IMG/VR virus record: IMGVR_UViG_3300042882_000732
Span: 1 to 64,000 of that record
Reading direction: 5' to 3' (one strand)
Length of the DNA: 64,000 nt
From: a virus
In this document: positions 695 through 58,475 of the stretch, piece by piece
How positions within the stretch are numbered: position 1 is the stretch's first letter
Layout: every line of letters starts with the position of its first letter
Position numbers and translations under genes: made by a program
Notes under the pieces: generated by a model
Database searches by the model: none
What the model saw: the letters and a program-made list of their open reading frames with translations, nothing else
What the model was told of the DNA's origin: nothing

Positions 695-715
695 ATTTGT
701 CCTTTCGATCCTTTA

Positions 716-2170: not shown

Positions 2171-2218
2171 CAATGATCTCCTTGTGTTATATTTAAATCC
2201 TTATTCATCATTTATTTA

Positions 2219-4873: not shown

Positions 4874-4888
4874 GTAATCCCTTTTATA

Positions 4889-16208: not shown

Positions 16209-19200
16209 TTATGATGGTCGTCCCATAATACTTGGTTTAGCGGCACTATTCATGCCTCCTTCAAAAACAGTTTTATCATATTGCATGACGGTGTCTTGGG
16301 CAATATTTTTTGAACTAACAGAAGTATTGTCGTATATATTTTTTTCCATATTACCTTTTATAGATTCTAAACCAATATGGTGAAGTGATGTTGTTTGCGT
16401 AACATTAGCAGATAATGACGTTGGTATAGCATTTGCATGTTCTCCAAATTGAGCGGTGGCTGTTTGGAATGTGTTGATAGATGATGACAAACTTTTTTGT
16501 GCAGCACCAAACTGTTCAGTAAAATTAGCCCCAATTTGCTCTGTATATTCATTAAATTGACCAATAGCATTTGTAACAGCATCCTGTATGGATGATGATA
16601 TATTAGCCGTATCTATACTAACATTATTAGATACACCACCGGCAGAGGATGCGGTTTGTTTAAGTGTCTGTACAACATTAGAAAGAGGTGCTAGTTGTGA
16701 GGCTCCACCAGAAGAATTCATGCCAGTATTTGATAATTTATTTAATAGTTCTGGTAATATATTAGAATTTGATATACTAGCCATTGATCGACCACCAGCA
16801 GCAAGATATTGTGGACCGACTATACCTCCATTGGCCAAATAATTAACAATTCCGCCTCTATTTAAATGACCACTATTAATAGCATTGAGAAGTGGCATAT
16901 GTTTTTTAGTAGCTTGTCTATTTATTACAAATTCTCCTTTAGTTAACATTGCAGGAGTATCATCTGTAGTTCCATTGTTAGCATTAATAAAAGCTCCATT
17001 ATTAGCATATACTAATCCTCCCTTACTATATCCATGGAATTTCATTAATTTTTTTAAAATATTTTCTGCTCTTTTATTACCCTTTACCTTTTCCATATGT
17101 TGCATCAAGGTGCTTAGTAGTTCATATGGGGCTTTTTTGATTTGACTTGCAGAATATCCTTTGCCTCCTGTTATAGCAACTAATCCCTTCGGATCATCAA
17201 CAAATGACTCGATTTCCTTCATTAGTCCTGATAGCTGTATTTTTTTACCTCCAAAAGGATCACCCTTCATTCCAGCAGTTTTAGTTTGAAAAGAGTGGGC
17301 TAATTCATGCTGTACTACTGATGTTTTTGTCTTAGCGTCCTTAAATATCATTTTGTTACCTGAAGTAACCATGCCGTCTGGGGCTTTTACCGGACCTATG
17401 GTCTTAGCAACTTTCTTTTTGGCCTCAGCTAGTGCTTTAGGATCAACAGATACCGATTGCGGTGTAGACTTTTCAACAAATTCTGACAAGAACTGATCTC
17501 TTTTTGCTGGAGTAGCATAATCAGCCAAATCACTAGCTAAATTCTCTTGAACTTGTCTTAGTGTTTTGGTATCAGTAACATCTATAACTTCTGGAAGTGG
17601 TCGTTTGATTGGTAATGTTGTTGCATCTGGTTTTGTTCTGGCCATAAATTCTTCAGCAGTAACTCTTGGCTTGCTGGCTCTGGCAGCAGATCTTGCTTCT
17701 TCTGCACGTTTTGTATATTCTGCTGCCGTAATTCTGGGCTTAGCAGCTGATTTGGCAGCTTCTTGTAAAGGATCTAATATTGGTTGTGATTGTTTTGCTG
17801 ATTTACCAAGTTTAGACATATCCATAGGGTCACTGCGTAATGACGGCACTTTTACTTCTCTCAAATCTTTTAATGATCTAGATAAAGCTTCCCCTCTGCT
17901 TAACCGTCCCATGGACCCTATAGAACCTGTAGCCTCTGAAGGTATTGGCAATTTTTCTACATAATTTTGGATCATTTTAGGAATAGTAGATTCTGTGGCA
18001 CTGGCTATGGATGATCTTTGTGCTGCTTCGTAGGCTCTTTGCGAAACTTTATAGGCTTTTTCTGCAGCTTTGTCCATATCATCCAATCTGCCAGCAACGC
18101 TTCTAACTTTACCAGCTCCAGGAATTGGTAATGGCATAACCGAATCAGCAGTAACATCTCTAATCACATTAGCGGCCCTAACTACGGGCCCTAAAGGTCC
18201 AGCTTCAGAAACATTTCTTTCGTCGAATATCATTCCTGCTGAATTATTTTTAAGTAAAGGATCTGCTTCTAATCCAAAAGGAATACCGGCATAGGTGGCT
18301 AATCTGCCTGTTTGTTCAGCTAGTCTATTAATATCTGAAATACCAGCACCAACAGAATCAGACGCTTGACTTAATGCCTTATCGCCAAAAGCTCTAGCCA
18401 TAGTATCGTCATAACCAAGCACCTTTTGAGTTTCTGCAATGCCTAATGATGCCCCACCCAACAATGCTCCCCCACCTCCGCCAATAATTCTAAAGGGACT
18501 AGTAGCTACTGCAGTAAGATCTCCAATGTATCTGCCTGTAGTTCCAAGACCTCTATAAAAAGAATTACTACTATTTTCAAAACTAAAATCTTTATTTCCA
18601 GCTAGTTTTTCTCTTTCTCTATAAGCATCACGACGAGCATTAATGTCTTTCATGTCTTGACTATCATTACGAGCACGATCTTGTGGTAATGCTCCAACAA
18701 TAGCTTGTGTTAAAGTATCTCCAACATAAGCAGCATTTCCTAGTGGCCCCTCATAATTTTTAGCCCTATCGAATGTTTCTCGTGTTTTTTTCTCTTCGTC
18801 TTTTATTCTTGTATTTTCATTATTACGCCCTACTGATGGATCCATTCTAGTAGCTCTACCAAGAGCATCGGCTGCTGTATCTCCATATGTGGATCTAAAT
18901 GCCGCAGCATATTGTGGTTCCGTCATATTAACAACATGGGAAACCCCTGCCTTAAATCCTTCAGCAGATGCCTCATTTTCTTTTCTTATTCTTGCTTGTC
19001 TGTCAAGATAATCTTGTCTTGCTCCTTGAGCAGCAAAGTAGTCCTCAGCACTAGTATATTGTTTAGCTCCCCATCTTTCAGCATTTTTTCTAGATGAGTA
19101 ATATGATTCTGGCTGACGACCAATAGGATTCATGTTACCAGAAAAATTAACTCTTGCGCTATCTCTTTCTCTTTTTCTCTTGTCTATTTCTTCGTTTGAA

Positions 19201-22200
19201 AAGTCTGGTCGTCCATCTCCGTCGTTGTCTGCTCTGGCTTCATTTAGTCTTTGTTCATAATAGTCTATTACTTTTTTACCTTCGTCTTTTCTTTTTTCCA
19301 CTATGCTTTTTGATCTTTCAGCCTGTGATTGTATGGCATTTTTAGCTGCTGCATTGGCTTCTGCTAATGTTCCGCCATTATTAGCAACTGCATTAAATGC
19401 TCGTCTGCTTGCTGAAGATCCAATAAATTCTTTGGTTAGTCGTTCAGTTTTAGTGGTTTGATCACCAGATGTTGGGGTGGCTATGGAATAATCTGGTGTT
19501 TTTTTATTTAAGGCTTGGTTTATAATATTTGTAGTTAAAGCTGCTTGTCTTTTTTCTCTTGCTGGATTATTCTCTATAGGTCTCTCTATAGGTCCACCAA
19601 AAAGTATTTGTTCCAAAAGGTCTGCTGTTTCTTGATCAGCCTCTGTTGACAATCCTAATGCTAATCCAGCCATTTTTCTCTTTTTAGCCTGATTAGCCTC
19701 ATAAGCTCTATTATTAGCTGTACGATTAACCATTCCTTCTGAAGGATTTCCTGTTTGAACACCTGAAGAGACTGCAGGATCGGCTATGTCAGGTCTTGCA
19801 CTCTGATTTATTCTAGCGACAGTTGCTGGATCAATAGGGTCGGGTTTTCCTCCGTTACTAGTTATTGGAGGCAACGCAGCACTAAATGATAGGGCTCGTA
19901 AACTTCCTCTATTTCTAGGATCAGAGCCTAACTCTTTTAGGGCTGATCTTTCTTCTGATGTTATCTCATTAGACTGAGCACCTTTACGATAGGCACTATT
20001 TACTAAAGAAGAAATATTACGATCTTTTTCTACAGTATACGGGCCTACCTCTCTTTTTATTTGATTAGATTTTAAAGTTGCATATTCTGTTTCTTCTTCT
20101 GAGCTTATTCCTTTGCTTCCTTTAAGCCATAATGATCGTCTTCGTGACTCTTCAGATTTAATTTTTTTTCTCTCATTGATAGTTTCTTGTGTTGGTCCAA
20201 TCTTTATTGCCGCTCCTCTGCCCCAAGGTATTTTTGTCATATCGGGTAGAGGAACTGCTACTGGAGCTGGTTGCTCCATAGAGCTTTGAGTCATTTGATT
20301 ATTTGATGCTTCCGTTTCAGCTTCAGCCGCACTAGCTTTTTCAAATCTTTCTTTAGCTCTTTTCTTTTCTTCATTATAAAAATTAACCCCAACAATACCA
20401 GAGTTAGGATCCTCCTTTATACTGCCATATCCTGCATCGTTAGCACTTCTGAGTTGTGCGTCATTCTGTCTATTATTATAATTATCCCATCTGTTTTGAA
20501 ATTCTGGTTCATATTTTTTAGTTTCTGATTGTCTTTGTTCTTCTGTCATACTTTGCCATTTATTACTACCTACCTGAGATTCTGCCCAACTAGATGATGT
20601 TCTAGAAACTACCTCATCAGGTCTTCTTCCGGCTGCTTCTGACATCATCCATGATTCTTTTTGAGCATCTATTCTTTCTTCTTTTCTTTTTTGTACTTCG
20701 CCACCATTGGCTAAATAATTTACTGGCCCTCCTTTACTATATCCGAATGGTCTAGTAAAATATGCTTGTCTATAATCCATTTGTCCAAATGATCTTGTTA
20801 GATATAATTCTTTTCGACGTTGATAAATCTGTCGTTCTTCATCTGTAATTGTTCCATCTTTATTTAGATCTATATCTTCGTCAATATTAGTTCCTGCTTT
20901 ACCACCCTTTTGTAAATAAACCACTCCACCCTTACTATAATTTCCACTATTAATAGCTTTCAATAATGGTAAATGTTTTTGTGTAGACTTAGAATTGATA
21001 ACAAATTCGCCAGGACTTAACATGGCAGGAACAGTGTCGGTACCTTTAGGCTTAAAATCAATAAGCTTTCCACTACTAGCATATATTAATCCTCCAGATG
21101 ATCTGGCCGCAGCAGGAGCAGGAACAGCCACCCCAGGATTAACTATTCTGTTACCAGCAGCGTCCATACCTATATTAGCATTATTCAGATTTCCTTCGAT
21201 GCTTGCTCTTAAATCATCAATACTAATACGTAAATTATCATTAGAATTTTTTAGTATGGATTGTGATTCTAATAAAGCCAGTTCTCCTTGTGCTTTTGTA
21301 GCATCGGCTCTTAATCCAACAGCTTCTAAATATCTTTCAGCAGCCTGTTGCATAGCAGGATCTGCTTTGCGATCCTCTAGGACAGCCAATGACTGTTGAA
21401 CAAGTGGATTATTTATCATTCCACTTTCTATCGCCATTTGTTTGGTTACTTGTAATTGCTGTTTTTGAAAATATTCTGCTACTGCTTGATCAGCATCTAC
21501 TCCTGGTCTTCCTCGGTTCTGAGCATATTGATTTCTTATCTGTAATTCTTGAGCAGCTCTGAATCCGGGATCCTGCATCAATGATAGTGTTTCTTTTCTT
21601 TGATTAGCAAGAACAGTATTTCCGGCGCGAGTTGCTTCTCTTACATTTCCGGTCTTAAATAATGTTTCATTAAATGCTTTTCTAGCGTCTCTTTGATTAT
21701 ATGCACTATTGAGTCCTCCAGAAAGATTTCGTTGTAATCTAATAAAACTTTGATTAAGTTTATCTGCTTCTTCTGGCGTATTAGTTAATAATTGATTAAC
21801 AAAATTTTGTCGATTATTCTGTAATTCTGCAGTATTTTGCAAGTTGTTGAAAGCTTTATCTACTAATTCTGTACTATTAGCAAGCATATCTAATGCTTCT
21901 CTATTATCTCTTAATTGATCATCTAATTTATTAAGCTGTTCAACATTGTTACGCAAAGCGTCTTTATCTGTAAGGGTATTTTGTTGATTCTGTAGAGTAT
22001 CTCTTTGCTCAGCAAGCATTATTTGTCTATTTTTAATTCCCTGAACAGTTGTTTCACCTCCTGCTAAACCACCAACATCACCCATAATTCTATTAAATTG
22101 TTCATCATATGTTTCACCGTATCCACTCAAGACTTCTCTTAGGTTCATATTGCCTTCGTTAGAGATTTCTCTTGATCTTCTAAAATAGTTTTGAGATTCT

Positions 22201-25200
22201 TTAGCTGCTTTGCTAGCTTCATTCAAGCCCTTAGCAAATTTATCTAATGCTCCTTCTTTGAATGATGATAGACCTTTTATAGAATCTAATAATTTTTTAC
22301 CAAAATCACCTAAAACACTAGTACCTTCTTCTAGTTCTTTTCTAAATTCTGATACTTGCGTAGTATTATCGGCATTGTTATCTTTAGCTTTTTTAGCTAT
22401 AGTTTCTATCCTGGCCGTAGCTATTTGTTTTAATTCATCTTTTTGTTGTCTAGATAAATTAGCATTATTTTCTATTTCATTTTTAGCAGTATCAACTGCT
22501 GCTTTTTTAAGTTCATCTACTCCTGAGCCGGCGCTCTTGTCTAAAACAGTTGCTATGCTTTTTGTTATATTTTTTGGTATGTTTTGTTGTAATTGAGCAC
22601 CGCCAATCAGTTGTTTTCTAAGTCCGTCACTTAATCCTGCTGTGGCACTTTGTAGTGCTGCAGTAAATTCTGCTTCAGAATATGCATTGGGATTTTCTAA
22701 AATATTTCTTTCTCTTAGTTTTGGACCAGAACCTCTGGACTCTCCACGTAATGATGATGCATATTGGTTTGCCGCTTCTACTCTAGCATCAGACTCAAAT
22801 GATATTCTATTAACAGATTCATTTACTATATCTGCTATTTTATCAAAACTTGCTGCTAATCTTCGTCCTGCTTTATCAGCAATTTCCATAGCTCTTGCTA
22901 ATTTTGCAGCTTCTTGAGAAGCTTTTGCTAATTCATCATTAGCTAAAAATGCTTGTTGCGCTGCTGTACCAGCAATAGCTTCTTTACCTTGTGGTCCGGC
23001 AGCCATATATAAAGCTCGTTTTTCAGAATCAGCTAGAATCATGCCTTTTATAGATTCTCTAACTATATTTCCAGCTTCATTAGTAGGATCCATAATTTGA
23101 TCATTAGTGAATCCTTTTGCATATAGCCTTTCTAGATCGGTATATCCAGCATTAGCTATTTTTTGAAAATTTTCTGCTTCTTTTTGAGCATCAACTCTTG
23201 CTTCTTCCATGCCATAAGAGCCTTGTTTGGATTTTGCAAGCGTTACAGGGTCCATGTCTTGGTAGAATGGATTCATACCAACTCCAATTTCTCCAATGGC
23301 CAACAATATTCCTCTGCCAAAATCTGACCAATTACGCTCCGTCTCTGCTTTATTCTTTCCTGTTATTCCTGTATCTGCTGTGCTTTCCAGGGCAGTATCT
23401 GTTAAGCTTTTAATGGTTGATGCTGTTTTTGCTCTAAGTTCAACGTTATTAGCATCTCTGCTTAATTTTTCCAAAGCATTTGATAGATTATCACTAGCAG
23501 CAGATAATTTATCATTTAATAAAGCTCTTGCCATTTCTTGAGCTGCTTTTTTGGCAGTGCCTGAGAAATCATATACAGCATCAGCGCCAGCATACAGTGC
23601 TGTGCCTATAGCAGCAGCAGCTCCTAACATAGGATTTATAGCAGCTAATTGTGCTGATGTTGTTAGACCAACAGACAGTGTTGTTGCTGCTTTATCGATT
23701 CTTGCGCCTGTATCTGCCGCTTGTATTTTGCCTTTATCGGTTTTAGTATCAAATAATGCTGATGCTATGTTGTCTCCTTGTCCAGCAACTAATCCTGCCG
23801 CTAATCCAATGTCGCCCAATCCTCTCTGCATACTTTTTCCTAGATCTCCAGTAAAGTATCTTTCTCTAAATGCTCGATTAATAGGACTATTTCTAGTATC
23901 CATTAATCCAGCAGCTCCAACACCTCGTTCTCCTCTCATTTTTGCCAGATCATTTATAGCTTCTCTTCGTTTGCTAACTTCTTCCTGTGCTAATTTTTTA
24001 GCTTCCTCTGCAGAAGCAACGCTAATACCTCTAACAGTTCCAGCATTCTTATACTCTTCCATTCTCATAGCTATTAACTGCTGATCCATTTGTCTGAGAG
24101 TTTTTCTATCTCTCATAGAATCAGAAATATATTTTTGAATATCATTTCCAGTTATATTTAGATTTTTTAATTCACTTTCTGTTATATTCCCTTTTATGCC
24201 AGTAGAAGTTTTTGTTCCTGTAGCCGCTGCTGTAGCTCTAGAAAATGCTTGCGTTTTAATATCATTTAATTCAGAAGATATAGCTTGGGCGACCTGATCA
24301 GCTAAGTCTGATGGAGATATTGGTTGTTTGGATGATGATACTATATCAGCTTCTATAGCCTTTTTTCTTTTATCTATTAATCGTCGCTCTTCTTTTTCTG
24401 CTAAAGATAATATTTTTTGTTGCGTAGCTCCTGATCCTAATTTTTTACCAACTGAACTTTCTTTAAATCCAGACTCTAAAAATTGACGATTAGTAACATC
24501 AATAAGTCCTTTATTTCTAATATTAGACAATGCCTTTTCAGCTTCTATAATTTTATCAATAGATGCTCCACTAATTTTTAATCTTTCTAGATCTTTATTA
24601 CCAGCTTCTAATACTGCTTGTATAGATAATTGTTTATTTTCATTTAATAAACGATTTAAATACTTCATGCCGTCTCCGGCATCATAAAGAGTGTCCACAA
24701 ATGCTTTTGTATCTTGCAGAATAGATGGGTCTACAGCTATTGTACTAGTATCTATTGAATTTGGGCGATTATTAGTAATATTTTGTGTTCTTCCTAAATT
24801 ACTTGCTATGCTTTGTAATCCAGAAAGAAAGCCATCTACACCTCCACCTAAAGCAAATCTTTGTACTCCTCCTACAATTCCTCCTTTATTGTATCCTTGT
24901 ATTTTATCTGCTTTATTTAATTTTTCTAACTTGCCATATCCTATTTTTTCTGCTGCTTTTTTATTAACAACAAATTCACCAGGAGTTAATAATGCTGGTA
25001 CAGTATCCTGCGCAGACCCACCATTTGCAAATTTTCTTTTATTCTGCATCTTCTTTAGAAGAGACGGATCTATATTTGGACCATATTCATATAGCAGAGA
25101 GGATGCCATATTATCGGCAACTTCTTGTATTTTAGAAAGATTACCAGCTTGCTTAAATTCTGCATAATTACCAATGTTACTACTTTCTTGTTTTAGTCCG

Positions 25201-28200
25201 CCTAATATATTGTATCCAAAACCATTCTTTCGTCTGGAAATTCTAAAATTAATATCTGGATATTGATTTAATATTTTTTGTCTTATTTTTTCAAATTCAT
25301 TTTCTTTACCAAATGCCATTCCTCCATCTTTAAACTGCTGAACTTTCATTCCTTCTATATGACGAATATTTCCACCTAATAATTTATCTTCTTGATCTTT
25401 ACTAAATATTCTATCAATATCATCTATTCTAAATTTTGAAGTTTGTGGGAGAATGAATTCTTTTTCTATTCGTGTTGCTGATCGACTTCTGCTTAGAAAA
25501 TCTGCTCCGCTTTTTCCAGAGACAGGGTCTATATATTTTGATAATGCTTTTATAATATCTTCTTCTGTGGAGGTATCAAATATTGCCTTATCAACATCAA
25601 TAGATGGAATATTTTTATTTCTAATGATACTCAACATTGCACTAGAACCATTTTCTGGCTGAAATACACTAGCTGTATCCGGGGATTCACTAGTTGATAA
25701 TAATGAGCCATTTAAATTAAAGTTTTTACCAATAGCATCAGAAATATCTTTATTAGAGTTTAAAGGATTATTAATTTGAGTTAAAATGGTTTTTAATTTA
25801 CCACCAGCAACAGTGGAATATAATTTACCAGAACGCTTTGAGCCACTCATTGATTCTTGGCTAGTAAACATTTCCAATAAATCTTTTGCAGCATTCTTTG
25901 TGGCATCATACGCCTTTGGAGGATCAGCATGGAAAGTTTTAAGATATTCCATGAAAGAATCATTATCTTCTAAATATCTATTTATAAATTCGCTATCAGT
26001 TCCACCACCAGGAAATGGTCCTGTTCTGTATTTGGCTAATGAGACTAGTTGTTGTGGAGTATATACTTCTCCGCCGTCAGCAAAAGCTGTTACTTTTTCT
26101 GGATCAGGAATGCCGTATTGTTGTCTAAAATATTTTTGAAATTCTTCAACAGCTTTACCTCTACTATTACTATCTATTGTTCTTTTAACTTCTGTTGGAA
26201 TATCAGGATCGATACCAAATATTTTTGCTGCTTTAGGTCCGATACCCATTGGAAAGTCAATTGGTCTTGTTCTTAATGCATCGTCTAATATTGTGGCATC
26301 TGCTGATCCAAAAATTTGTTCTAGTAAAGCACCCTCAATATTTCCTTGTCCTAATGTTTCTCTTTGTTTTTTAGTTAATTCTTTAGGAGTAATACCAAGA
26401 AGCTTTGATGCTCCTTGTACTATTTCTGCTGTTTGTCCACTAAGATAATCAATAACGTTTTGGAATTCTGTTGGTAGTCCTCTTTGTACTATTGAAGCGT
26501 CTATTGATCTTTCTTGGCCAGACGGATCGACTCCAAGATTCCAAGTCTCTGGACCCAATAATCCAGTATATCCTAGCGGATTTAATCCAACTAATCCTAA
26601 TTGTTTGGAAGATAACACAGCATTAGTTGTATCTTCTAGAGCTGTAGCCTTTTGAATTCCTTGTGATTCATTAAATTTGTCTATTAGATAGTCTCTTGTT
26701 GCAATATAGTAAGCGAGCTTATCTTCTTTTGTTTCTGGTCTAAAAGCAGAATTCCAGTATTTTAATTTTCCTCCTTCGGCTGTATCTCTTACTGTTTTTC
26801 CTGAGAATGGGCCAAAACTTGGATCATTTGGTAATCTTTGAGTTCCAAATCTTTTTAGAATCTCTGATCCTTGTGTTGGTAATATTCCAGAAGACTTTTT
26901 GACCTGGGTGGCTTTTTCTACATTTTTTAGTATTGCCTCTTCTAGTCCAGAAGGCATAGCTGTTGGAACTCCACCAAACTCACCAGCCATCTGTTCTGAA
27001 ATTTGTGCTGCTATGGCCTCTCTGGTTATGTCTGATGGTTGCGCAGATACGGCGGATTTTCTTGATGGGTCTAACCCATAAGTTTCTGGATATTTGGCAG
27101 ATAGGGCGCTTATTATATTAAATGCTCTATAGCCGAATGCTCCTTTAGATACTCTATCTCTTTTGTCTCTTATCTGCTTAACTTGCTCAGCTATTTCTGG
27201 ATAATTTTTCTTTAGATCAGCACTAACATTACCATATGGACCACCAGGAGCATTTGATAATATTTCTGTAACCTCAGCATTGGATCGTACTTTATCTTGA
27301 TCAACAAACTTTTGTATTTCTTCGATGAGCATAGGAACCATAGTGCTACGATTACGTAATTGTGCTCTATTGCCCATTAATATTGATGCTATATCAGGAT
27401 TCATTAAACTAGTAAGTGTTTTATCGTCACCATTAAATAATGCGTCTCTAACTGCAGTAGCACTAATATCTTCTATTCTAGGAATATCTGTAACGTCTAT
27501 TCCTGCTCTTTGGTATTTGCCCAATGTTTTATCGTCTTTACCAGAAGTTATTGCCATGGCTCCTTTTAATCTGGCGAATTTTCTTCTATCTCCAGCATCA
27601 GTAACTTCCATAAATTTTGGTAAACCACCACCCGTCTGGCTTTGAGTGCTAATCATAGCATTTCCAAAATTCATTTGGCTAAATAAGGTTCTTATGTCTG
27701 ATGGGAAAATACCATATCGTGCAGCGTGGTCTATGCCTTCTTTATCAACAATCATTGGAAGGTCAGGAGCAACACTAACAAGAATATCTTCTAAAGAAGA
27801 GTTTGGGTTCTTTGCTAACATGTTTTCTAATAAAGTATCTAAAGCTCCTCTATGGCCTCTTGTTGGTGGGGCAAAACCACCCATATAAAATCCACCAGCC
27901 TGAACTATTTCTGGTAGTTCGCTTTCTCTTTTACGTCTTAAACCGAAACTATCTTTTTTTCTTCCTAATACTGTGGCTCTTTTGCCAAGTTCATCTCGTA
28001 ATATGGTTTCTTCCAGACCAAAATCAATATCAGCTGCTCTTGTGGTTCCTGGTTTACGACCATACAATCCTTCTCCTGTAATGTCTCTGCTCTCTCTATT
28101 TGACCTAACTCTATCTTGTTCCTCTCTGCTATTAGAGCTTAATACATATGCTCTATCAACATCTTTTAAATAAGCATCTAATTTAGTCTGACTAGCTGTC

Positions 28201-31061
28201 GATGTTAATACTATAACTTCATTAACTTTGTCTATATCTTCAGGCGTTAATATTTGAGAGCGAATTGTTTTTCTTAAAGTAGCATCATCATTAGCTCCCT
28301 TTCCGGTTGCTAAACTGCTTTTTCCACTTCCAGCAGCTCCAGCAATAGCTCTAAACCTAGATAGCGATCCACTTTTTCTAGCATTGCCTGCCAATTCTCC
28401 AAGTTTTGTTGTATAGTCACTAACATCAGTTATTCCAAGCTTTTCCATTGCTGGCCTAACTATCGCCGCATTAGCCTCATCTCTTAGTACGTCCGTATCA
28501 ACTACTCCAATTTTTCTTTCTACTTTTCCTCCAACCATGAACTTAGCCAATCCTTTAGTCTCTGTCATTTTCTTAATAAAACCAATATCAGAGATAGTTT
28601 TTAATGGCCGGGAGTCGTCTTGTATTATATTCCCTGAACTGTTAAACCTATCCTTAGATCCTGCTGGCATATAGTTAAACATATAATCATCTTTAATAAC
28701 CCTATCCCATGATGACTTATTAGTATTGCCGAATCCTGAATTTTTCTTCATTATCTCTAGTCTATTTGCTAGTTTATCTGCTTGAATAATGTCTTGACCT
28801 TTTTTAGTTCCACTATATTTTGCAACATTCTCTCCTACTAATTTTTTATTAAGAGCACCAATTTCCGCCATTGGTCTGCCATAGTAATCTACTTTATTAG
28901 CGTCGATAAAAATTTTAGCTAATTTTTCTTTACCAAGTCCACTTATAAAATCTATAGTTATATCTTTGGCTCTTTTGCCTTTCTCTCTATTACTAGCATA
29001 TGCCGGACCTTTTCCTCCTTGACTAGCATACTCTTCTCTTTCTTTTTTTGATGCTTTAATTTCAAAAGCATCTATTCCTTCAAGTCTGGATGTGACTTTA
29101 AATTTACCTTTTTCACTAGGATAAATTAAATCGCCAGTTAGTTTTTTAAAACGTTTATTAACTAGTGTTTGTGTTGGATCAACCAATAAATTTATACTAT
29201 CTGCATCATAAGCTTTGAGCCTACCAGCATACTGCTTGTTAGACTTAGAATATTCTTGAACATCAATATCGTCATATAGTTTACCTCCACCCCCAAATCT
29301 TTTTCTTCTATTTGATTTTCCTGCTCGTATACTTCCACCACTTCCATACTTATTCATACTATGAAGACTATCAGTACCAATAGTTTCAACAGCTTTTTTA
29401 CGTATAACAAATTCTCCTGGCTCTAACATTGCTGGTACAGTATCTCCACTACCAGTACCAGGAACAACACCACCTCGTGCGAATTTTCTTATAACTCCGC
29501 CATTAGCTTTACCATCTGGTCCTCTTTTAACTCCTGTGGCAAATCCTGTAGTAAATTCTGTTAATGCTTTAAATCCCTTAAATGCTGCAAGTACTGCTAA
29601 TGCTGGTAGAATTCCTTTAACAGCATCTGCTACTTTTATCAAACCACTAGTTAGAGACAACGCTCCTCTGATTAAACTTTGAAATCCTTTGGATTGACCT
29701 ATTTCACGAAATAGTGAGAAAAATTCTTCACGAACTTTACTTATTTGATTAGCTAAACTTAATTGTGCTGTTGCTGCATCTTTAGCTAGCGAACCTTGTC
29801 CTTGTTGAGCAACTTTTAACGCCTGTTGAGCCACACTAAATTGTTGAATTAATGGAATAACTTTACCAATTTGTCTAAATCCACCAAGTTCTTCAACTAT
29901 TCTTGAAAAGTCCAAACTTCTAGGGTCTATTTTACCTAATCCTTTACTTAACAATTCGACAGCCTTATACGCTCCAACGAACTTACCCTCAGCATCTGTT
30001 AAGTTAACACCAAACTCTTTTAGGGCGTCTATCGTTGTTCCTCTTTGGATACGAGTAAATATTGTTCGTAATCCAGTAGCAATAGTTTCAGCGCTTTCAC
30101 GGGTAGTTGCTCTAACACTGGTAAATACCGAAATAAATTCATTTAAAGCGTCTTTTCCTTCGCTTACCCCTTTACTCGCAGTAGCGAATACGCTACCTGT
30201 TCTTTGCACGGCGGTAATGATGTCACTAGATTCTACTGCGAACCTTGCTGCCACGGTATTAACCGCACCTAATGATGCCTCCAAATCAGCAGCACTAATA
30301 CCAAACTGTCTCATTATAGCAATACTACCTTCCACAGTCTCATTCATATTATCAAATGACGGAGCTAAACTACTAAGTGCTAAGGCTTTTAAAGCTTTCT
30401 CAGTTTCTCTGGCACTTAAACCAGCCTGAGCTAATGTTGATGCTACTTGAGTTAGCTCTTTAGAACTAACACCAAATTCTACAGCTAAATTACTAATTTG
30501 AGATTGTAGTTTGGATAATCCGGCAGCAGATTCTCCAGTAACCTGTTGTAATTTTACAAGCTCTTTATCATAATCAATAAAAGCCTGTATACCATTATTT
30601 ATACTATTTGTTACTCCATATATAACACTTGTAACAGCACTAAATGCAACGAATCTTCTAACTGCTAAACCAGCTTGCTTGCCGAATTCCTGCATCTCTG
30701 TTGCGGCATTTTGCAATCCTCCAGATGTTGATGAGGATACTTTATTTAATTTAGCAATTGCTGATGAAGTTTGATTAATTTGTTGAGGGACATTGTTAAT
30801 TTTAACAGAATTTACGCTATTACCAAAAGCCTTTATTGCTGATGTGGCAGCATTGGCTGATTTGACAGTTGAGGCAAAATTAGCATTCAAAACTTTTAAA
30901 GAAGACGATAATGCTGCAACATTTTTTGATGCTGCCGGATCAAGTTTAAATTGTACATTTGCATTAAGAGCGCCAAGATCTTTTTTAATTTGAGCAGCTA
31001 TTTGCTTAACGTTTGTTGGACCTTTAAGATTCAACTGTGCTGTTAGATTAAAAGTTGCCAT
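16209..31061 (-). CDS. Giant tape-measure protein with embedded enzyme-like domains
   Basis: The protein has 4950 residues. Residues about 120-440 are a TP901-type tape-measure core (DYDKELVKLQQVTGESA, FGVSSKELTQVASTLAQAG). Four copies of a DTVPAMLxPGEFVI motif fall near 545, 2020, 3340 and 4700. Inserted domains seen: SNase-like (about 609-745; D619/D621, R659, E667, R729); P-loop GAAGSGKS (908-915) followed by a nucleotidyltransferase with GFAPPTRGH (1062-1070) and SATAVR (1200-1205); possible PD-(D/E)xK (about 1565-1660, IDFP then EVK); ADP-ribosyltransferase-like (about 1735-1890, LSTS and EKEFILP); EF-hand loops near 3395 and 3944; HELAH (4585-4589). Hydrophobic stretches lie near 2465-2495 and 4190. 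It sets tail length and leaves with the DNA at infection; the enzyme roles are inference from motifs. The start ATG follows AGGA. Confidence 0.92.
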   Translation of the reverse strand: MATFNLTAQLNLKGPTNVKQIAAQIKKDLGALNANVQFKLDPAASKNVAALSSSLKVLNANFASTVKSANAATSAIKAFGNSVNSVKINNVPQQINQTSSAIAKLNKVSSSTSGGLQNAATEMQEFGKQAGLAVRRFVAFSAVTSVIYGVTNSINNGIQAFIDYDKELVKLQQVTGESAAGLSKLQSQISNLAVEFGVSSKELTQVASTLAQAGLSARETEKALKALALSSLAPSFDNMNETVEGSIAIMRQFGISAADLEASLGAVNTVAARFAVESSDIITAVQRTGSVFATASKGVSEGKDALNEFISVFTSVRATTRESAETIATGLRTIFTRIQRGTTIDALKEFGVNLTDAEGKFVGAYKAVELLSKGLGKIDPRSLDFSRIVEELGGFRQIGKVIPLIQQFSVAQQALKVAQQGQGSLAKDAATAQLSLANQISKVREEFFSLFREIGQSKGFQSLIRGALSLTSGLIKVADAVKGILPALAVLAAFKGFKALTEFTTGFATGVKRGPDGKANGGVIRKFARGGVVPGTGSGDTVPAMLEPGEFVIRKKAVETIGTDSLHSMNKYGSGGSIRAGKSNRRKRFGGGGKLYDDIDVQEYSKSNKQYAGRLKAYDADSINLLVDPTQTLVNKRFKKLTGDLIYPSEKGKFKVTSRLEGIDAFEIKASKKEREEYASQGGKGPAYASNREKGKRAKDITIDFISGLGKEKLAKIFIDANKVDYYGRPMAEIGALNKKLVGENVAKYSGTKKGQDIIQADKLANRLEIMKKNSGFGNTNKSSWDRVIKDDYMFNYMPAGSKDRFNSSGNIIQDDSRPLKTISDIGFIKKMTETKGLAKFMVGGKVERKIGVVDTDVLRDEANAAIVRPAMEKLGITDVSDYTTKLGELAGNARKSGSLSRFRAIAGAAGSGKSSLATGKGANDDATLRKTIRSQILTPEDIDKVNEVIVLTSTASQTKLDAYLKDVDRAYVLSSNSREEQDRVRSNRESRDITGEGLYGRKPGTTRAADIDFGLEETILRDELGKRATVLGRKKDSFGLRRKRESELPEIVQAGGFYMGGFAPPTRGHRGALDTLLENMLAKNPNSSLEDILVSVAPDLPMIVDKEGIDHAARYGIFPSDIRTLFSQMNFGNAMISTQSQTGGGLPKFMEVTDAGDRRKFARLKGAMAITSGKDDKTLGKYQRAGIDVTDIPRIEDISATAVRDALFNGDDKTLTSLMNPDIASILMGNRAQLRNRSTMVPMLIEEIQKFVDQDKVRSNAEVTEILSNAPGGPYGNVSADLKKNYPEIAEQVKQIRDKRDRVSKGAFGYRAFNIISALSAKYPETYGLDPSRKSAVSAQPSDITREAIAAQISEQMAGEFGGVPTAMPSGLEEAILKNVEKATQVKKSSGILPTQGSEILKRFGTQRLPNDPSFGPFSGKTVRDTAEGGKLKYWNSAFRPETKEDKLAYYIATRDYLIDKFNESQGIQKATALEDTTNAVLSSKQLGLVGLNPLGYTGLLGPETWNLGVDPSGQERSIDASIVQRGLPTEFQNVIDYLSGQTAEIVQGASKLLGITPKELTKKQRETLGQGNIEGALLEQIFGSADATILDDALRTRPIDFPMGIGPKAAKIFGIDPDIPTEVKRTIDSNSRGKAVEEFQKYFRQQYGIPDPEKVTAFADGGEVYTPQQLVSLAKYRTGPFPGGGTDSEFINRYLEDNDSFMEYLKTFHADPPKAYDATKNAAKDLLEMFTSQESMSGSKRSGKLYSTVAGGKLKTILTQINNPLNSNKDISDAIGKNFNLNGSLLSTSESPDTASVFQPENGSSAMLSIIRNKNIPSIDVDKAIFDTSTEEDIIKALSKYIDPVSGKSGADFLSRSRSATRIEKEFILPQTSKFRIDDIDRIFSKDQEDKLLGGNIRHIEGMKVQQFKDGGMAFGKENEFEKIRQKILNQYPDINFRISRRKNGFGYNILGGLKQESSNIGNYAEFKQAGNLSKIQEVADNMASSLLYEYGPNIDPSLLKKMQNKRKFANGGSAQDTVPALLTPGEFVVNKKAAEKIGYGKLEKLNKADKIQGYNKGGIVGGVQRFALGGGVDGFLSGLQSIASNLGRTQNITNNRPNSIDTSTIAVDPSILQDTKAFVDTLYDAGDGMKYLNRLLNENKQLSIQAVLEAGNKDLERLKISGASIDKIIEAEKALSNIRNKGLIDVTNRQFLESGFKESSVGKKLGSGATQQKILSLAEKEERRLIDKRKKAIEADIVSSSKQPISPSDLADQVAQAISSELNDIKTQAFSRATAAATGTKTSTGIKGNITESELKNLNITGNDIQKYISDSMRDRKTLRQMDQQLIAMRMEEYKNAGTVRGISVASAEEAKKLAQEEVSKRREAINDLAKMRGERGVGAAGLMDTRNSPINRAFRERYFTGDLGKSMQRGLGDIGLAAGLVAGQGDNIASALFDTKTDKGKIQAADTGARIDKAATTLSVGLTTSAQLAAINPMLGAAAAIGTALYAGADAVYDFSGTAKKAAQEMARALLNDKLSAASDNLSNALEKLSRDANNVELRAKTASTIKSLTDTALESTADTGITGKNKAETERNWSDFGRGILLAIGEIGVGMNPFYQDMDPVTLAKSKQGSYGMEEARVDAQKEAENFQKIANAGYTDLERLYAKGFTNDQIMDPTNEAGNIVRESIKGMILADSEKRALYMAAGPQGKEAIAGTAAQQAFLANDELAKASQEAAKLARAMEIADKAGRRLAASFDKIADIVNESVNRISFESDARVEAANQYASSLRGESRGSGPKLRERNILENPNAYSEAEFTAALQSATAGLSDGLRKQLIGGAQLQQNIPKNITKSIATVLDKSAGSGVDELKKAAVDTAKNEIENNANLSRQQKDELKQIATARIETIAKKAKDNNADNTTQVSEFRKELEEGTSVLGDFGKKLLDSIKGLSSFKEGALDKFAKGLNEASKAAKESQNYFRRSREISNEGNMNLREVLSGYGETYDEQFNRIMGDVGGLAGGETTVQGIKNRQIMLAEQRDTLQNQQNTLTDKDALRNNVEQLNKLDDQLRDNREALDMLANSTELVDKAFNNLQNTAELQNNRQNFVNQLLTNTPEEADKLNQSFIRLQRNLSGGLNSAYNQRDARKAFNETLFKTGNVREATRAGNTVLANQRKETLSLMQDPGFRAAQELQIRNQYAQNRGRPGVDADQAVAEYFQKQQLQVTKQMAIESGMINNPLVQQSLAVLEDRKADPAMQQAAERYLEAVGLRADATKAQGELALLESQSILKNSNDNLRISIDDLRASIEGNLNNANIGMDAAGNRIVNPGVAVPAPAAARSSGGLIYASSGKLIDFKPKGTDTVPAMLSPGEFVINSKSTQKHLPLLKAINSGNYSKGGVVYLQKGGKAGTNIDEDIDLNKDGTITDEERQIYQRRKELYLTRSFGQMDYRQAYFTRPFGYSKGGPVNYLANGGEVQKRKEERIDAQKESWMMSEAAGRRPDEVVSRTSSSWAESQVGSNKWQSMTEEQRQSETKKYEPEFQNRWDNYNNRQNDAQLRSANDAGYGSIKEDPNSGIVGVNFYNEEKKRAKERFEKASAAEAETEASNNQMTQSSMEQPAPVAVPLPDMTKIPWGRGAAIKIGPTQETINERKKIKSEESRRRSLWLKGSKGISSEEETEYATLKSNQIKREVGPYTVEKDRNISSLVNSAYRKGAQSNEITSEERSALKELGSDPRNRGSLRALSFSAALPPITSNGGKPDPIDPATVARINQSARPDIADPAVSSGVQTGNPSEGMVNRTANNRAYEANQAKKRKMAGLALGLSTEADQETADLLEQILFGGPIERPIENNPAREKRQAALTTNIINQALNKKTPDYSIATPTSGDQTTKTERLTKEFIGSSASRRAFNAVANNGGTLAEANAAAKNAIQSQAERSKSIVEKRKDEGKKVIDYYEQRLNEARADNDGDGRPDFSNEEIDKRKRERDSARVNFSGNMNPIGRQPESYYSSRKNAERWGAKQYTSAEDYFAAQGARQDYLDRQARIRKENEASAEGFKAGVSHVVNMTEPQYAAAFRSTYGDTAADALGRATRMDPSVGRNNENTRIKDEEKKTRETFDRAKNYEGPLGNAAYVGDTLTQAIVGALPQDRARNDSQDMKDINARRDAYREREKLAGNKDFSFENSSNSFYRGLGTTGRYIGDLTAVATSPFRIIGGGGGALLGGASLGIAETQKVLGYDDTMARAFGDKALSQASDSVGAGISDINRLAEQTGRLATYAGIPFGLEADPLLKNNSAGMIFDERNVSEAGPLGPVVRAANVIRDVTADSVMPLPIPGAGKVRSVAGRLDDMDKAAEKAYKVSQRAYEAAQRSSIASATESTIPKMIQNYVEKLPIPSEATGSIGSMGRLSRGEALSRSLKDLREVKVPSLRSDPMDMSKLGKSAKQSQPILDPLQEAAKSAAKPRITAAEYTKRAEEARSAARASKPRVTAEEFMARTKPDATTLPIKRPLPEVIDVTDTKTLRQVQENLASDLADYATPAKRDQFLSEFVEKSTPQSVSVDPKALAEAKKKVAKTIGPVKAPDGMVTSGNKMIFKDAKTKTSVVQHELAHSFQTKTAGMKGDPFGGKKIQLSGLMKEIESFVDDPKGLVAITGGKGYSASQIKKAPYELLSTLMQHMEKVKGNKRAENILKKLMKFHGYSKGGLVYANNGAFINANNGTTDDTPAMLTKGEFVINRQATKKHMPLLNAINSGHLNRGGIVNYLANGGIVGPQYLAAGGRSMASISNSNILPELLNKLSNTGMNSSGGASQLAPLSNVVQTLKQTASSAGGVSNNVSIDTANISSSIQDAVTNAIGQFNEYTEQIGANFTEQFGAAQKSLSSSINTFQTATAQFGEHANAIPTSLSANVTQTTSLHHIGLESIKGNMEKNIYDNTSVSSKNIAQDTVMQYDKTVFEGGMNSAAKPSIMGRPS

Positions 31062-33594: not shown

Positions 33595-34707
33595 TTATAC
33601 TGTTGGCACATCAGCATAACTGCCGGTGGCTCTAACATAAAAATCATTATAGTTTCTAAAACCATAAGTAATAGTAAGATTTCCACCACCAGTGTCACCA
33701 CCAGCATAATTAACAGATGTTAGTTTATTACCAGAACCTAAATAGAATTGTAAACTATTATTATTGCTACTAGGATCACCACTACCACAAATCTTTAATC
33801 TAATAGGAAATTCTGTTAGATTATTATAGTTAACACCACAGCCACTACTAAATATAAAGTCATTTGCGGTAATATAATCGCCGACCTGACCAATAATTTC
33901 AAATTCACTAGTAACTTCAACAGGAAAGGTTGCATATCTATAGTATGGAGCTAACTGACCAAGCTCGTTAATTTGCTCACGACCAAGATTAGCACTTATT
34001 GTTATATTCTGTAAGTATAAATCAACATCAACACCAGTTGGCAAACCGCCGCTTTTAAATACTCCATTAAATCCTGTTGGTAAGACTGATTCGCTAATAT
34101 TTATATACTGTCTACGAGCTAATTTATTAGCTGTTTTATTTATTGTGGCAGCTGTCATATCTCCCATAGTACCGCCACTATTTTTAGCCCATTTTTTATT
34201 ATTTCCAACTAAAGTGATTTCTTCAGTAGCATTTCCATCCACTGGGAAAGTATAGTTTAAACTAGATAAATACATAGGAGTACATTCAACCCAGTCAGTT
34301 GTGGTACCATTAACTGTAGATTTAATATCACTATATATTCCTAATCTAAAGTCTACAGTATTAAATGCTAATCCAGCAAAACCTTTATTTTTAAGTTGAT
34401 TTGAATCTGTGAAGCTGCTAGTATTAGCTCCTTCGATTCCAGTTTCGCCACCCATGGCCATTAAATATAAAGGACATGTACCGTCTAGAGCCTTATTAAT
34501 AGTAACTTCAACTTCAGGAGTATTCTCACTAATAGCATAAATATCTATAGCACCTAATTGAAACGCCTGCTCAGTAGATAGTGTATTATTGAATCCAACA
34601 CTCTGAACACCTTGGGGCTGATACCATGAACCATACTTATTTCCGGTTGTTGATGGTTTTAATTGAGCTATCTGTGAGCCGTAAAAAATTCTATTATTAT
34701 TACCCAT
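33595..34707 (-). CDS. Major tail protein paralogue (third in transcript)
   Basis: This is a 370-residue structural protein and one of three tandem paralogues. Shared marks include an N-terminal RIFYGSQIAQLKP, a PQGVQSVGFN element, PEVEVTINKALDGT, FPVDGNATEEITLVGN followed by KKW, and a C-terminal GKLTSVNYAGGDTGGGN-like segment (here NKLTSVNYAGGDTGGGN). Its place just upstream of the chaperone-position genes and the tape measure is that of a major tail (tube) protein. GGAG precedes the ATG. Which of the three builds the tube and which are minor or decorated forms cannot be decided here. Confidence 0.75.
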   Translation of the reverse strand: MGNNNRIFYGSQIAQLKPSTTGNKYGSWYQPQGVQSVGFNNTLSTEQAFQLGAIDIYAISENTPEVEVTINKALDGTCPLYLMAMGGETGIEGANTSSFTDSNQLKNKGFAGLAFNTVDFRLGIYSDIKSTVNGTTTDWVECTPMYLSSLNYTFPVDGNATEEITLVGNNKKWAKNSGGTMGDMTAATINKTANKLARRQYINISESVLPTGFNGVFKSGGLPTGVDVDLYLQNITISANLGREQINELGQLAPYYRYATFPVEVTSEFEIIGQVGDYITANDFIFSSGCGVNYNNLTEFPIRLKICGSGDPSSNNNSLQFYLGSGNKLTSVNYAGGDTGGGNLTITYGFRNYNDFYVRATGSYADVPTV

Positions 34708-34732
34708 TTAAAAACTCCTATTTAATTGATGT

Positions 34733-35959
34733 TTAGGTTAATGTACCAGAGGCATAGGCTGATCCATTATGGCTAAGATATTTAGCATAAGAGCCCTCAG
34801 GAATAACATTGAACTTGTTGAATGTTTGATAGCTATATGTAACAGTAGCATTACCACCACCAGTATCTCCTCCTGTATAATTAACTGAGGTTAATCTATT
34901 CTTTGTTCCAAGATCTAGATATAAAGCATCAGCATTTGTTGCTCCACAAACTTTAATAACAATTTCTTCATTAGGAGTATTGCTATAATCTGTTGCGCAT
35001 GTTGCAGAACTGATGGGGTTATCTTCATTGTCATAAGCCATAAAATCATTAGCATTGATAAAATCACCAGATACTGATACCAATTCAAATTCACTGGTCA
35101 CTTCAATAGGAAATGTGGTATATTTGTAATATGGACCAAAGAATCCTAATTCATTAATATTTTCTCTATTAAGAGAAGCACTAACTGTTATATTTTGTAC
35201 TTTAGGAGTATCTTCTCCTCCGTTAATTTCTCGCTTATATGGAACTAGTATTCCAGTTGGTAGCATAGTAAAGGCAGGAAAAGTTGTAATTTTATCATTT
35301 TCATCTCTGACTGTGCTTAGCGTAGCAAGAGCCCCAGTTATTGCAACATGCTGTCTTCTAACAACAAGACTTGCTAAGTCTCCAAGAGCCTCAGCAGCAG
35401 CCCCATTAGGAACAGTAACTGAACCACCCCATGTTTTTCTACTACCGGCTAATGTTACTTGCTCAGTAGCATTTCCATCAACAGGGAAAGTGAAAGACAC
35501 ACTATTCAAATACATACCAGAGCATAAAGTATGATGACTAAGTGTTCCACTAGCTTTAGAACTAGTATCTTTAGCAACAGCAAATCTAGCATTAACCATA
35601 TTTGTTGATATTTCAGTAATATCTTTATTTTTAGATACAACAGCGGTTCCATTGGTCCATGCTGTGCATAAAGAATATAAAGGAGCTGTTCCATCTACTA
35701 ATTTAGATAATGTTACTTCAACTTCTGGAGATGTTTCTACTTGAGTATAAATAGATAATGTTCCAAGTTGAGAAACTGGTTCATTATTAAATGTTGTACT
35801 TATACCAGCACTTTGTAAACCTAGTGGTTGAATCCATCGACCATAAGTAACATAATGACTTGGGTCTCTATAATTTATAGGGACGGCATTTCCAGTAGAT
35901 ACTGGTTGAAGATTAATACTTTGTGTAGCATAAAAAATTCTTTTATTAAGATTACCCAT
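34733..35959 (-). CDS. Major tail protein paralogue (second in transcript)
   Basis: This 408-residue member of the tandem tail-protein trio keeps the shared blocks RIFYATQSINLQP, PLGLQSAGIS, PEVEVTLSKLVDGTAPLY, FPVDGNATEQVTLAG and RLTSVNYTGGDTGGGNATV. It differs most in the middle, where an insert around the RREINGGEDTP-like stretch occurs, and it ends with an extra Ser/Gly-rich tail. The start ATG overlaps the preceding gene by eight bases and has a GGAG site. The divergence suggests specialised roles along the tail tube or at its ends rather than a recent copy. Confidence 0.75.
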   Translation of the reverse strand: MGNLNKRIFYATQSINLQPVSTGNAVPINYRDPSHYVTYGRWIQPLGLQSAGISTTFNNEPVSQLGTLSIYTQVETSPEVEVTLSKLVDGTAPLYSLCTAWTNGTAVVSKNKDITEISTNMVNARFAVAKDTSSKASGTLSHHTLCSGMYLNSVSFTFPVDGNATEQVTLAGSRKTWGGSVTVPNGAAAEALGDLASLVVRRQHVAITGALATLSTVRDENDKITTFPAFTMLPTGILVPYKREINGGEDTPKVQNITVSASLNRENINELGFFGPYYKYTTFPIEVTSEFELVSVSGDFINANDFMAYDNEDNPISSATCATDYSNTPNEEIVIKVCGATNADALYLDLGTKNRLTSVNYTGGDTGGGNATVTYSYQTFNKFNVIPEGSYAKYLSHNGSAYASGTLT

Positions 35960-37166
35960 TATAAATATCTCCAGTATTTGATTCTAATGTGGAAGTTGAT
36001 GCTGGTGTGGTGGCCGACACTGTGGGATTATTTATTTGTTGAACATTAACAGCATTATCATCGTCATTGATAGTAACTCCCTTAGCATACGTACCACTAG
36101 CATCTATTTTAAAGTCATTGAAATTTCTAAAACTATATGTTACTGTGGCATTTCCACCACCAGTATCGCCGCCAGCATAATTAACTGCAGTTAATGTATT
36201 TTTTGACCCAAGATCAAAAACCATAGAATTACTACCATTAGTATGGTCAAAGTCACAAATGGCTAATCTAATAGTTTTGTATGCTAAATTAGTTTTAGAT
36301 GTTCCGCAAAAACTATCACCACTAAAGTCTTTGAAATCTAAACCATCGCCATCTTCTGCAATAATTTCAAATTCGCTAGTAACTTCAATAGGAAATGTTG
36401 CATATCTACAATATGGACTAAATTTACCTAATTGATTGATACTTTCTCTTCCAAGATTAGAACTCATGGTAATATTTTGAATATGAGGTAATTTGGAGTA
36501 TGTTGGACCACCAATGCCACCTGTTCCAACAGGAAGTGTTGATTGTTGAATATTAAAATATTGTCTACGTAAAATTCCACTACTACTTGATGGTCTTACT
36601 CCATTCGCTACTTTTCCTTGAGTAAATGTATCACCAACTGAAGGTGCTCCAGTGTTTATTCCAGGATAATTATAATTCCATCTTTTGTGATTTCCTACAA
36701 GTGTAATTTCTTCAGTAGCATTTCCTTCTACTGGCAATGTATAATTAAAACTAGACAAATACATTCCTGTGCATACAACATATGAAGCTGCTGCATCTTC
36801 TGTGAATTGTTTGTTATCTTCATAAATTCCTAAACGAAAATGAACTCTATTATTTGATAATGAGACTAAACTAGCATTTATGGCATCTCCTATCCCGCCG
36901 CCACCGCCCATTGCCATTAAATATAAAGGACTAGTACTATCTATTATTTTGTTGATAGTTACTTCAACTTCTGGAACGGTTTCAACATTATCATATATTT
37001 CTACTGTTCCTAGTTGAAAAGTTTGTTCTCGGTTAAAATTTGTTGTCATACCAACGCTTTGAACACCTAGAGGATTATACCAATAGCTTGTTACGCTGGA
37101 TCCAGTATCATTACATGGTCTTAACTGAGCAACCTGAGAAGCATAATAAATTCTGTTGTTCGGCAT
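35952..37166 (-). CDS. Major tail protein paralogue (first in transcript)
   Basis: This is the 404-residue first copy of the trio. Shared blocks: RIYYASQVAQLRP, PLGVQSVGMT, PEVEVTINKIIDSTSPLYLM, LPVEGNATEEITLVGNHKRW and LTAVNYAGGDTGGGNATVTY. The tail beyond this block (about 40 residues) is Thr/Asn-rich and specific to this copy. The ATG has a GCGGGAG ribosome site and lies 39 bases downstream of a GGTGTATTCTATAAAATATAC motif, so this copy probably starts its own transcript and is the best candidate for the most highly made tube subunit (inference). Confidence 0.75.
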   Translation of the reverse strand: MPNNRIYYASQVAQLRPCNDTGSSVTSYWYNPLGVQSVGMTTNFNREQTFQLGTVEIYDNVETVPEVEVTINKIIDSTSPLYLMAMGGGGGIGDAINASLVSLSNNRVHFRLGIYEDNKQFTEDAAASYVVCTGMYLSSFNYTLPVEGNATEEITLVGNHKRWNYNYPGINTGAPSVGDTFTQGKVANGVRPSSSSGILRRQYFNIQQSTLPVGTGGIGGPTYSKLPHIQNITMSSNLGRESINQLGKFSPYCRYATFPIEVTSEFEIIAEDGDGLDFKDFSGDSFCGTSKTNLAYKTIRLAICDFDHTNGSNSMVFDLGSKNTLTAVNYAGGDTGGGNATVTYSFRNFNDFKIDASGTYAKGVTINDDDNAVNVQQINNPTVSATTPASTSTLESNTGDIYNG

Positions 37167-41650: not shown

Positions 41651-41686
41651 TAATATACTTGCCACCCTTCTGGTTTATTATTTGAG

Positions 41687-58457: not shown

Positions 58458-58475
58458 GATAAATTTATACACCCT
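58458..58475 (-). promoter_or_regulatory. GGTGTA-type putative late promoter P2 (portal operon)
   Basis: Minus-strand core GGGTGTATAAATTTATC begins at the stop codon of the large terminase gene and lies 50 bases before the portal start. It includes TATAAATT, close to the T4-type late element TATAAATA. Confidence 0.55.

Follow-up and report, generated by a model that had tools for sequence, protein, structure and literature searches.

What does a phage tape measure protein of 4950 residues carry, and to what use? The question is raised by a single intact ORF of 14.85 kb on the minus strand of the window, a stretch of viral DNA of 64,000 nucleotides. A preliminary description, drawn from the sequence, had claimed that this one frame combines a TP901-type core with six enzyme-like domains set between four copies of the motif DTVPAMLxPGEFVI. 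The frame and the core were borne out: a second IMG/VR record (L003), from the same or a near-identical virus, encodes an identical and equally intact 4950 aa protein, a Pfam scan recognised PF10145 (PhageMin_Tail) at aa 188-380 (E=1.1e-21) and the core matched several tape-measure families of PHROG, which together identify a tape measure of the TP901 type. The nearest cores among cultured phages are those of the SPbeta-group YomI proteins (~25% identity). Three of the four motif copies are good (aa 540, 2019 and 3342), whereas the fourth, near aa 4700, is the degenerate DDTPAMLTKGEFVI. The motif is common among tape measures; it matches 223 cultured-phage records, many of which are annotated as such. 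The features of the protein are collected in Table 1, where residue n starts at window position 31061-3(n-1). We consider that it is best read, with a probability of roughly 0.62, as a modular polyvalent tape measure delivering several host-directed enzymes at infection.

Table 1. Features of the giant tape measure protein, with approximate domain limits in residues and positions in the window.
Feature	Residues	Window positions	Strand	Basis
Giant tape measure protein, single ORF	1-4950	16209..31061	-	ORF call; PF10145, PHROG; identical in L003
TP901-type/PhageMin_Tail N-terminal core, family anchor	1-520	29502..31061	-	PF10145
Hydrophobic segment closing the core	474-494	29580..29642	-	Same position in 12/12 relatives checked
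Motif 1, DTVPAMLEPGEFVI, start of payload bay	540-553	29403..29444	-	Motif search
SNase-like domain	~595-765	28767..29279	-	Family profile, invariant catalytic residues, PF00565 homologue
P-loop kinase, zeta-toxin-like, Walker A GAAGSGKS	~847-1035	27957..28523	-	AF2, Foldseek, alignment of relatives
HIGH-superfamily nucleotidyltransferase, GGFAPPTRGH and ISATAVR	~1048-1249	27315..27920	-	AF2, Foldseek, 3gmi profile, motifs
PD-(D/E)xK-like nuclease, GNIEGALLE...IDFPMG...TEVKR	~1453-1650	26112..26705	-	E-D-ExK motif only
R-S-ExE ADP-ribosyltransferase	~1670-1905	25347..26054	-	PF03496, homologue, motifs
Small conserved cassette, no assigned function	~1922-2008	25038..25298	-	Present in 6/42 relatives
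Motif 2, DTVPALLTPGEFVV, end of payload bay	2019-2032	24966..25007	-	Motif search
Conserved scaffold without enzyme family	~2040-3340	21042..24944	-	88% identical in L007; Pfam tiles empty
Motif 3, DTVPAMLSPGEFVI	3342-3355	20997..21038	-	Motif search
EF-hand-like loop, DLNKDGTITDEE	3398-3409	20835..20870	-	EF-hand_5, E=0.017
HExxH zincin-like domain	~4425-4682	17016..17789	-	HELAH at aa 4585-4589, downstream YELLSTL; motif only
Degenerate motif 4, DDTPAMLTKGEFVI	~4700-4713	16923..16964	-	Motif search

Single-sequence scans of the payload with Pfam and PHROG returned almost nothing past the core, and matches were obtained only with family profiles. Relatives were therefore gathered for family alignments. 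The profile of the SNase family (A6) matched thermonucleases of the PDB (E=1.5e-9); the window sequence alone gave no Pfam match, and a homologue in L011 exceeded the PF00565 cut-off. In an alignment of ten sequences D24, D26, R64, D69 and E72 (alignment numbering) were invariant, so that the catalytic D, D, R, D and E of the staphylococcal nuclease family are present together with its OB-fold profile. The first AlphaFold model was set aside for this domain because its pLDDT was below 50 there. A plain helical scaffold across aa 600-1890 would have refuted the preliminary description; instead, confident alpha/beta enzyme folds were predicted for aa 847-1362, with a pLDDT of ~85-90 for the P-loop kinase and the nucleotidyltransferase (NTase). 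When these predicted structures were compared using Foldseek, the P-loop domain was matched to the zeta toxin 6epi (E=4.5e-3) and the NTase to NadM (2qjo, E=2.2e-4) and human NMNAT (1kku, E=9.4e-4), each with a probability of 1.00. At the sequence level the NTase profile matched the HIGH-NTase MJ0951 (3gmi, E=2.8e-4), and the Walker A, GxFxPxTxGH and ISxTxxR motifs were largely retained in 14 relatives; both motifs of HIGH nucleotidyltransferases are thus found with a predicted Rossmann fold. The pairing of a kinase with an adenylyltransferase recalls NadR, and the predicted folds are nearest to zeta toxin and to NadM/NMNAT, respectively. In contrast to these proteins, the kinase precedes the NTase here, the identity is ~15%, both are embedded in a tape measure and the similarity is one of fold only. 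The two domains could have housekeeping-like roles rather than serve in attack.

Further along the bay, the E-D-ExK pattern GNIEGAxxE...IDFPxG...TEVKR of the putative PD-(D/E)xK nuclease was found in 36 of 42 relatives; searches of Pfam and of PDB profiles with this family gave no match. The AlphaFold model of aa 1368-2014 had a pLDDT of 45 and for this reason was used neither for this domain nor for the ADP-ribosyltransferase (ART). Many relatives carry, inside or beside the PD-(D/E)xK unit, a segment named HAD-type from its motifs (DFDxTL, TARP, IDDN), which is absent from the window copy; the name GNAT used below was given by eye and is provisional, as are some of the zincin names. The window ART matched PF03496 with E=0.0042 and its homologue in L020 with 1.1e-7, exceeding the Pfam cut-off. 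In the alignment of this family (A7), STS and ExE were invariant and the R of the first motif was not evident. PDB profile searches gave no relevant match for the ART, GNAT-like and HAD families. The HExxH domain, which lies outside the main bay, carries HELAHS at aa 4585 with a glutamate downstream in YELLSTL; it is 80% identical to its counterpart in L005 (dN/dS 0.22) and might have a role in self-processing or as an effector. The zincin1 family of the relatives had no match in a PDB profile search, and a comparison of zincin profiles gave no support for kinship (probability 22%). Combined, the comparisons of sequence and structure uphold all six domain calls of the preliminary description: the SNase, P-loop kinase, NTase and ART are members of their families by profile or structure, with good support, and the PD-(D/E)xK and HExxH domains are candidates by their conserved catalytic motifs.

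That description had also proposed a search of metagenomes for the same domain set. Relatives were collected with a payload query and subsequently with a profile of the core, which yielded 57 IMG/VR loci (46-100% identity) that were reduced to 42 non-redundant tape measures. HMMs of 15 cassette types were run over all tape measures, and the addition of loci found with the PD-(D/E)xK and zincin1 profiles brought the total to 64 distinct tape measures sharing the core, with 46 different line-ups. At least three domains were recognised in 41 of them and none in 4; the numbers of line-ups and domains are minimum values, since many ORFs are truncated where the contig or locus stops. The enzyme domains of the relatives are located mostly between DTVPAML motifs 1 and 2 and their order varies, being SNase-ART-HAD-PDDEXK-ploop-nt-GNAT in L145 and SNase-zincin1-ART-ploop-nt-HAD-PDDEXK in L107. 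Several zincin types occur in many members. All loci with PD-(D/E)xK or zincin1 and an uncut N terminus carry this core, which suggests that the two families occur only in these tape measures, as far as profiles whose patterns derive from these same proteins, and which rarer forms may escape, can tell. Beyond what had been claimed before, the domains thus appear to be interchangeable cassettes across the whole family.

Exchange between viruses is apparent when cassettes are compared with their cores. Between L003 and L004, dS is 1.43 in the core and only 0.03, 0.04 and 0.11 in the SNase, P-loop and NTase cassettes, respectively. With L061, identity rises from 57% in the core to 90% in the ART cassette and 98% in the cassette that follows it. 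With L007 it falls from 97.5-98% in the core to 52% in the P-loop-NTase-nuclease unit, and there are differences in other cassettes as well. Where local matches of at least 70% identity ended, a linker motif ([FYLMHIW]xxGG or PGE) lay within 12 aa in 81% of cases (n=118), compared to 13% (sd 3%) for random positions, and none of 500 simulations reached 81%. The difference in dS carries more weight, because these 118 ends are mutually dependent and alignments may stop at linkers for other reasons. Sequence comparison therefore gives good support to the view that viruses exchange entire cassettes, with breakpoints at Gly-Gly linkers. A large survey found signals of mosaicism in tape-measure sequences and confirmed no genuine recent case (PMC10684548); the present family provides a case of recent domain exchange. 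The payload cassettes are maintained by purifying selection, as dN/dS was 0.04-0.15 where measurable (the SNase of L003 and L004 differs by no amino acid and hence yields no ratio), and the catalytic residues of the SNase, NTase, P-loop, ART and HAD domains are invariant or nearly so. Variation of the bay fits an arms race against host defences.

How such a protein might work can be outlined from these features. The TP901-type core and the long scaffold would do the normal work of a tape measure, and the protein presumably sits in the tail of the virion. The payload bay of ~1400 aa, which lies mostly between motifs 1 and 2 and holds the SNase, kinase, NTase, PD-(D/E)xK and ART domains, would accompany the tape measure at infection and reach the cytoplasm, unfolded or in single file, through the tail lumen; the zincin-like domain is placed outside the bay, close to the C-terminal end. 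Tape measures of long-tailed phages exit the tail during infection, and the tail lumen measures ~4 nm. Because folded domains of 20-35 kDa are tight in such a lumen, unfolding or another location has to be assumed. By rough volume arithmetic, three copies of 1400 aa would fill ~45 nm of a 4-nm tube at full packing, an estimate by which tail space is not prohibitive, though folded domains remain a tight fit. With this family, the physical problem of how folded enzymes could be packed in a tail tube becomes accessible to tests. Once inside, the enzymes would act early on nucleic acids and proteins of the host or of competitors, and on defences based on NAD or nucleotides; the earlier label 'nucleic-acid- and NAD-directed' is plausible for the SNase, PD-(D/E)xK, ART and NTase, their substrates being putative. 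Zincins, if present, may cleave the chain into pieces, as argued for polyvalent proteins. No sheath family (PF04984, PF17482) was found in 14 records, some of which may be fragments, and a non-contractile tail is therefore likely on this sequence evidence. The chances seem about even for the broader proposition that in large, apparently sheathless uncultured phages the tape measure is an exchangeable multi-effector injection platform, the cassettes of which recombine at Gly-Gly linkers, accompany the DNA out of the tail and disable the host ahead of any phage gene expression.

Other explanations of the same features were weighed. Every member of the family comes from metagenome contigs, and an assembly artefact or a chance reading of motifs could be suspected. 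However, more than 60 distinct contigs carry intact ORFs of 3-5.5 kaa in which synonymous changes dominate; conservation over many independent contigs and a dN/dS far below 1 exclude a chance origin of the domains, the artefact reading is on this sequence basis already refuted at gene level, and its overall probability is negligible. Enzyme folds could also have been recruited as inert or structural spacers, for length or for filling of the lumen, with their activity lost. Insertions are tolerated by tape measures, and some PD-(D/E)xK copies of the relatives have lost the ExK (TDATNQATK forms), as spacers might. This reading is nevertheless very improbable, as it accounts neither for the conservation of catalytic residues and the low dN/dS reported above nor for a mix of domains that varies beyond length alone.

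The enzymes might otherwise work at the stage of entry: instead of acting in the cytoplasm, they would degrade DNA and proteins outside the cell or in the periplasm, being active within the envelope or at the membrane while the phage penetrates. Muralytic tape measures provide the model, as those of mycobacteriophage TM4 and SPbeta (YomI) carry peptidoglycan hydrolases for entry; they share with the window protein an enzyme inside the tape measure, and YomI is a distant relative of its core. In favour of this reading, the envelope is where tape measures insert, the core ends in a hydrophobic segment, thermonucleases and zincins are able to function outside cells, and lytic-domain tape measures are well known, also from enterococcal phages (PMC10194240). 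In contrast to these, Pfam tiles over the payload and aa 2037-4950 contained no peptidoglycan hydrolase, and in the latter part matched no enzyme family at all. Furthermore, the NAD needed by the ART and the nucleotide triphosphates needed by the kinase and the NTase are cytoplasmic; because these three enzymes need cytoplasmic substrates, delivery to the cytoplasm is favoured and an envelope role appears improbable. A small but appreciable chance is left to an assembly-time polyprotein, whose domains would be fused for dosage or targeting, excised by the embedded zincins during tail assembly, and then either active in the cell that makes the phage or placed in another part of the virion. Zincins of several types in many members, Gly-Gly linkers regularly placed at cassette borders and the cleavage of P1 DdrB prior to packaging (PMC5512222) would suit it, but many members with nuclease and ART have no recognised zincin in the bay, and most linkers resemble ordinary tape-measure sequence.

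The preferred reading, a polyvalent tape measure with delivered enzymes, places the protein among known systems without matching any of them. The injection of effectors by phages is an established concept, as is that of polyvalent proteins in which ART, GNAT, P-loop and zincin domains occur (PMC5512222, PMC9503650), the latter having been described in MuF, portal, DarA/DdrB and N4-RNAP-like carriers that are mostly packaged in the head (Iyer et al. 2017, PMC5512222). Two features of polyvalent proteins are found here, namely several unrelated enzyme domains per polypeptide (recognised by profile, structure or motif) and architectures that differ among relatives. As in those proteins, one phage chain, apparently encoded among virion genes and proposed to be injected, bears many unrelated enzymes (ART, zincin, GNAT, P-loop, NTase, nuclease) in varied line-ups. 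However, the carrier is a tape measure, whereas PMC5512222 mentions neither tape measures nor TP901, the nuclease/NTase set is not theirs, and Pfam detected none of ArdC-N, ParB/DdrB, RadC, PBECR and MuF in the window protein or in 124 cassettes. The family suggests that many phage effectors are carried by the tail rather than by the head. Tape-measure-related chains with exchangeable functional domains are also found in contractile injection systems, as Sle1 of Streptomyces, for which packaging and ejection were shown, and Tme (PMC13277306); these belong to a bacterial contractile nanomachine and have one C-terminal domain each, whereas this is a true phage with no sheath found and several internal enzymes per chain. 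Polymorphic toxins (PMC3482391) likewise join a constant delivery part to a recombining effector part, but with a single C-terminal toxin, whereas here several payload domains lie within the chain. The preliminary description called it unusual for one tape measure to hold several such domains, which agrees with the literature searched: among open-licence PMC papers, none was found in which the tape measure of a phage combines several non-muralytic enzymes, and an earlier description elsewhere is possible. With more than 60 natural combinations, the family is a source for the mining of host-takeover and anti-defence activities.

Searches outside the family were also carried out. The payload had no tblastn match in cultured phages and plasmids, one longer query giving only short matches at or near the motif/linker region. 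A host in the Alphaproteobacteria was considered from a single short contig binned in a MAG of that class, which is too weak to name a host, and the Moraphage lineage (PMC12619734) was rejected as a source, with no tape measure reported there and no link shown. The DTVPAML motif, with no visible payload, is also present in gp12 of cyanophage Bellamy and in a single-cell virus from the sea (L074). The Bellamy protein (L073:4062-6461; a T4-like Synechococcus phage) adjoins baseplate hub genes and is annotated as hypothetical; from its sequence, it is possibly the unrecognised tape measure of that phage. The retrieved part of the L004 tape measure closes, at the locus end, with ~80 aa that form a DnaJ-like domain (VYDILGVQPGT...FTHPDLGGS), and a J-like start, SHPDKGGDPERF, occurs also in L074. 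Five relatives have loops resembling the EF-hand-like calcium loop that the window protein carries in its C-terminal part.

Around the tape measure gene, a chaperone-like gene was read by eye at 31166 and a terminase is located at 58474-60510; PHROGs were silent on the neighbours tested. Upstream, three tandem paralogues of ~370-410 aa (33595-37166, minus strand) begin with MGNNNRIFYGSQ, MGNLNKRIFYATQ and MPNNRIYYASQ; read by eye they are possibly tail-tube proteins, and some relatives (L004, L005) show one only. The structural block includes a sulfotransferase-like protein named by eye, FISGLPRSGSTLLC (43564-44394, minus strand). Three further proteins on the minus strand are a 692-aa protein whose two folded-looking halves are separated by a stretch rich in proline and threonine (TPTPTSTxx; 39587-41665), a fibre-like protein of 1199 aa in which GGGxxNxA repeats form a long run (44367-47966) and an 884-aa protein with an FGE-sulfatase domain (2219-4873; PF03781, 4.4e-8), a fold that is frequent in variable phage adhesins.
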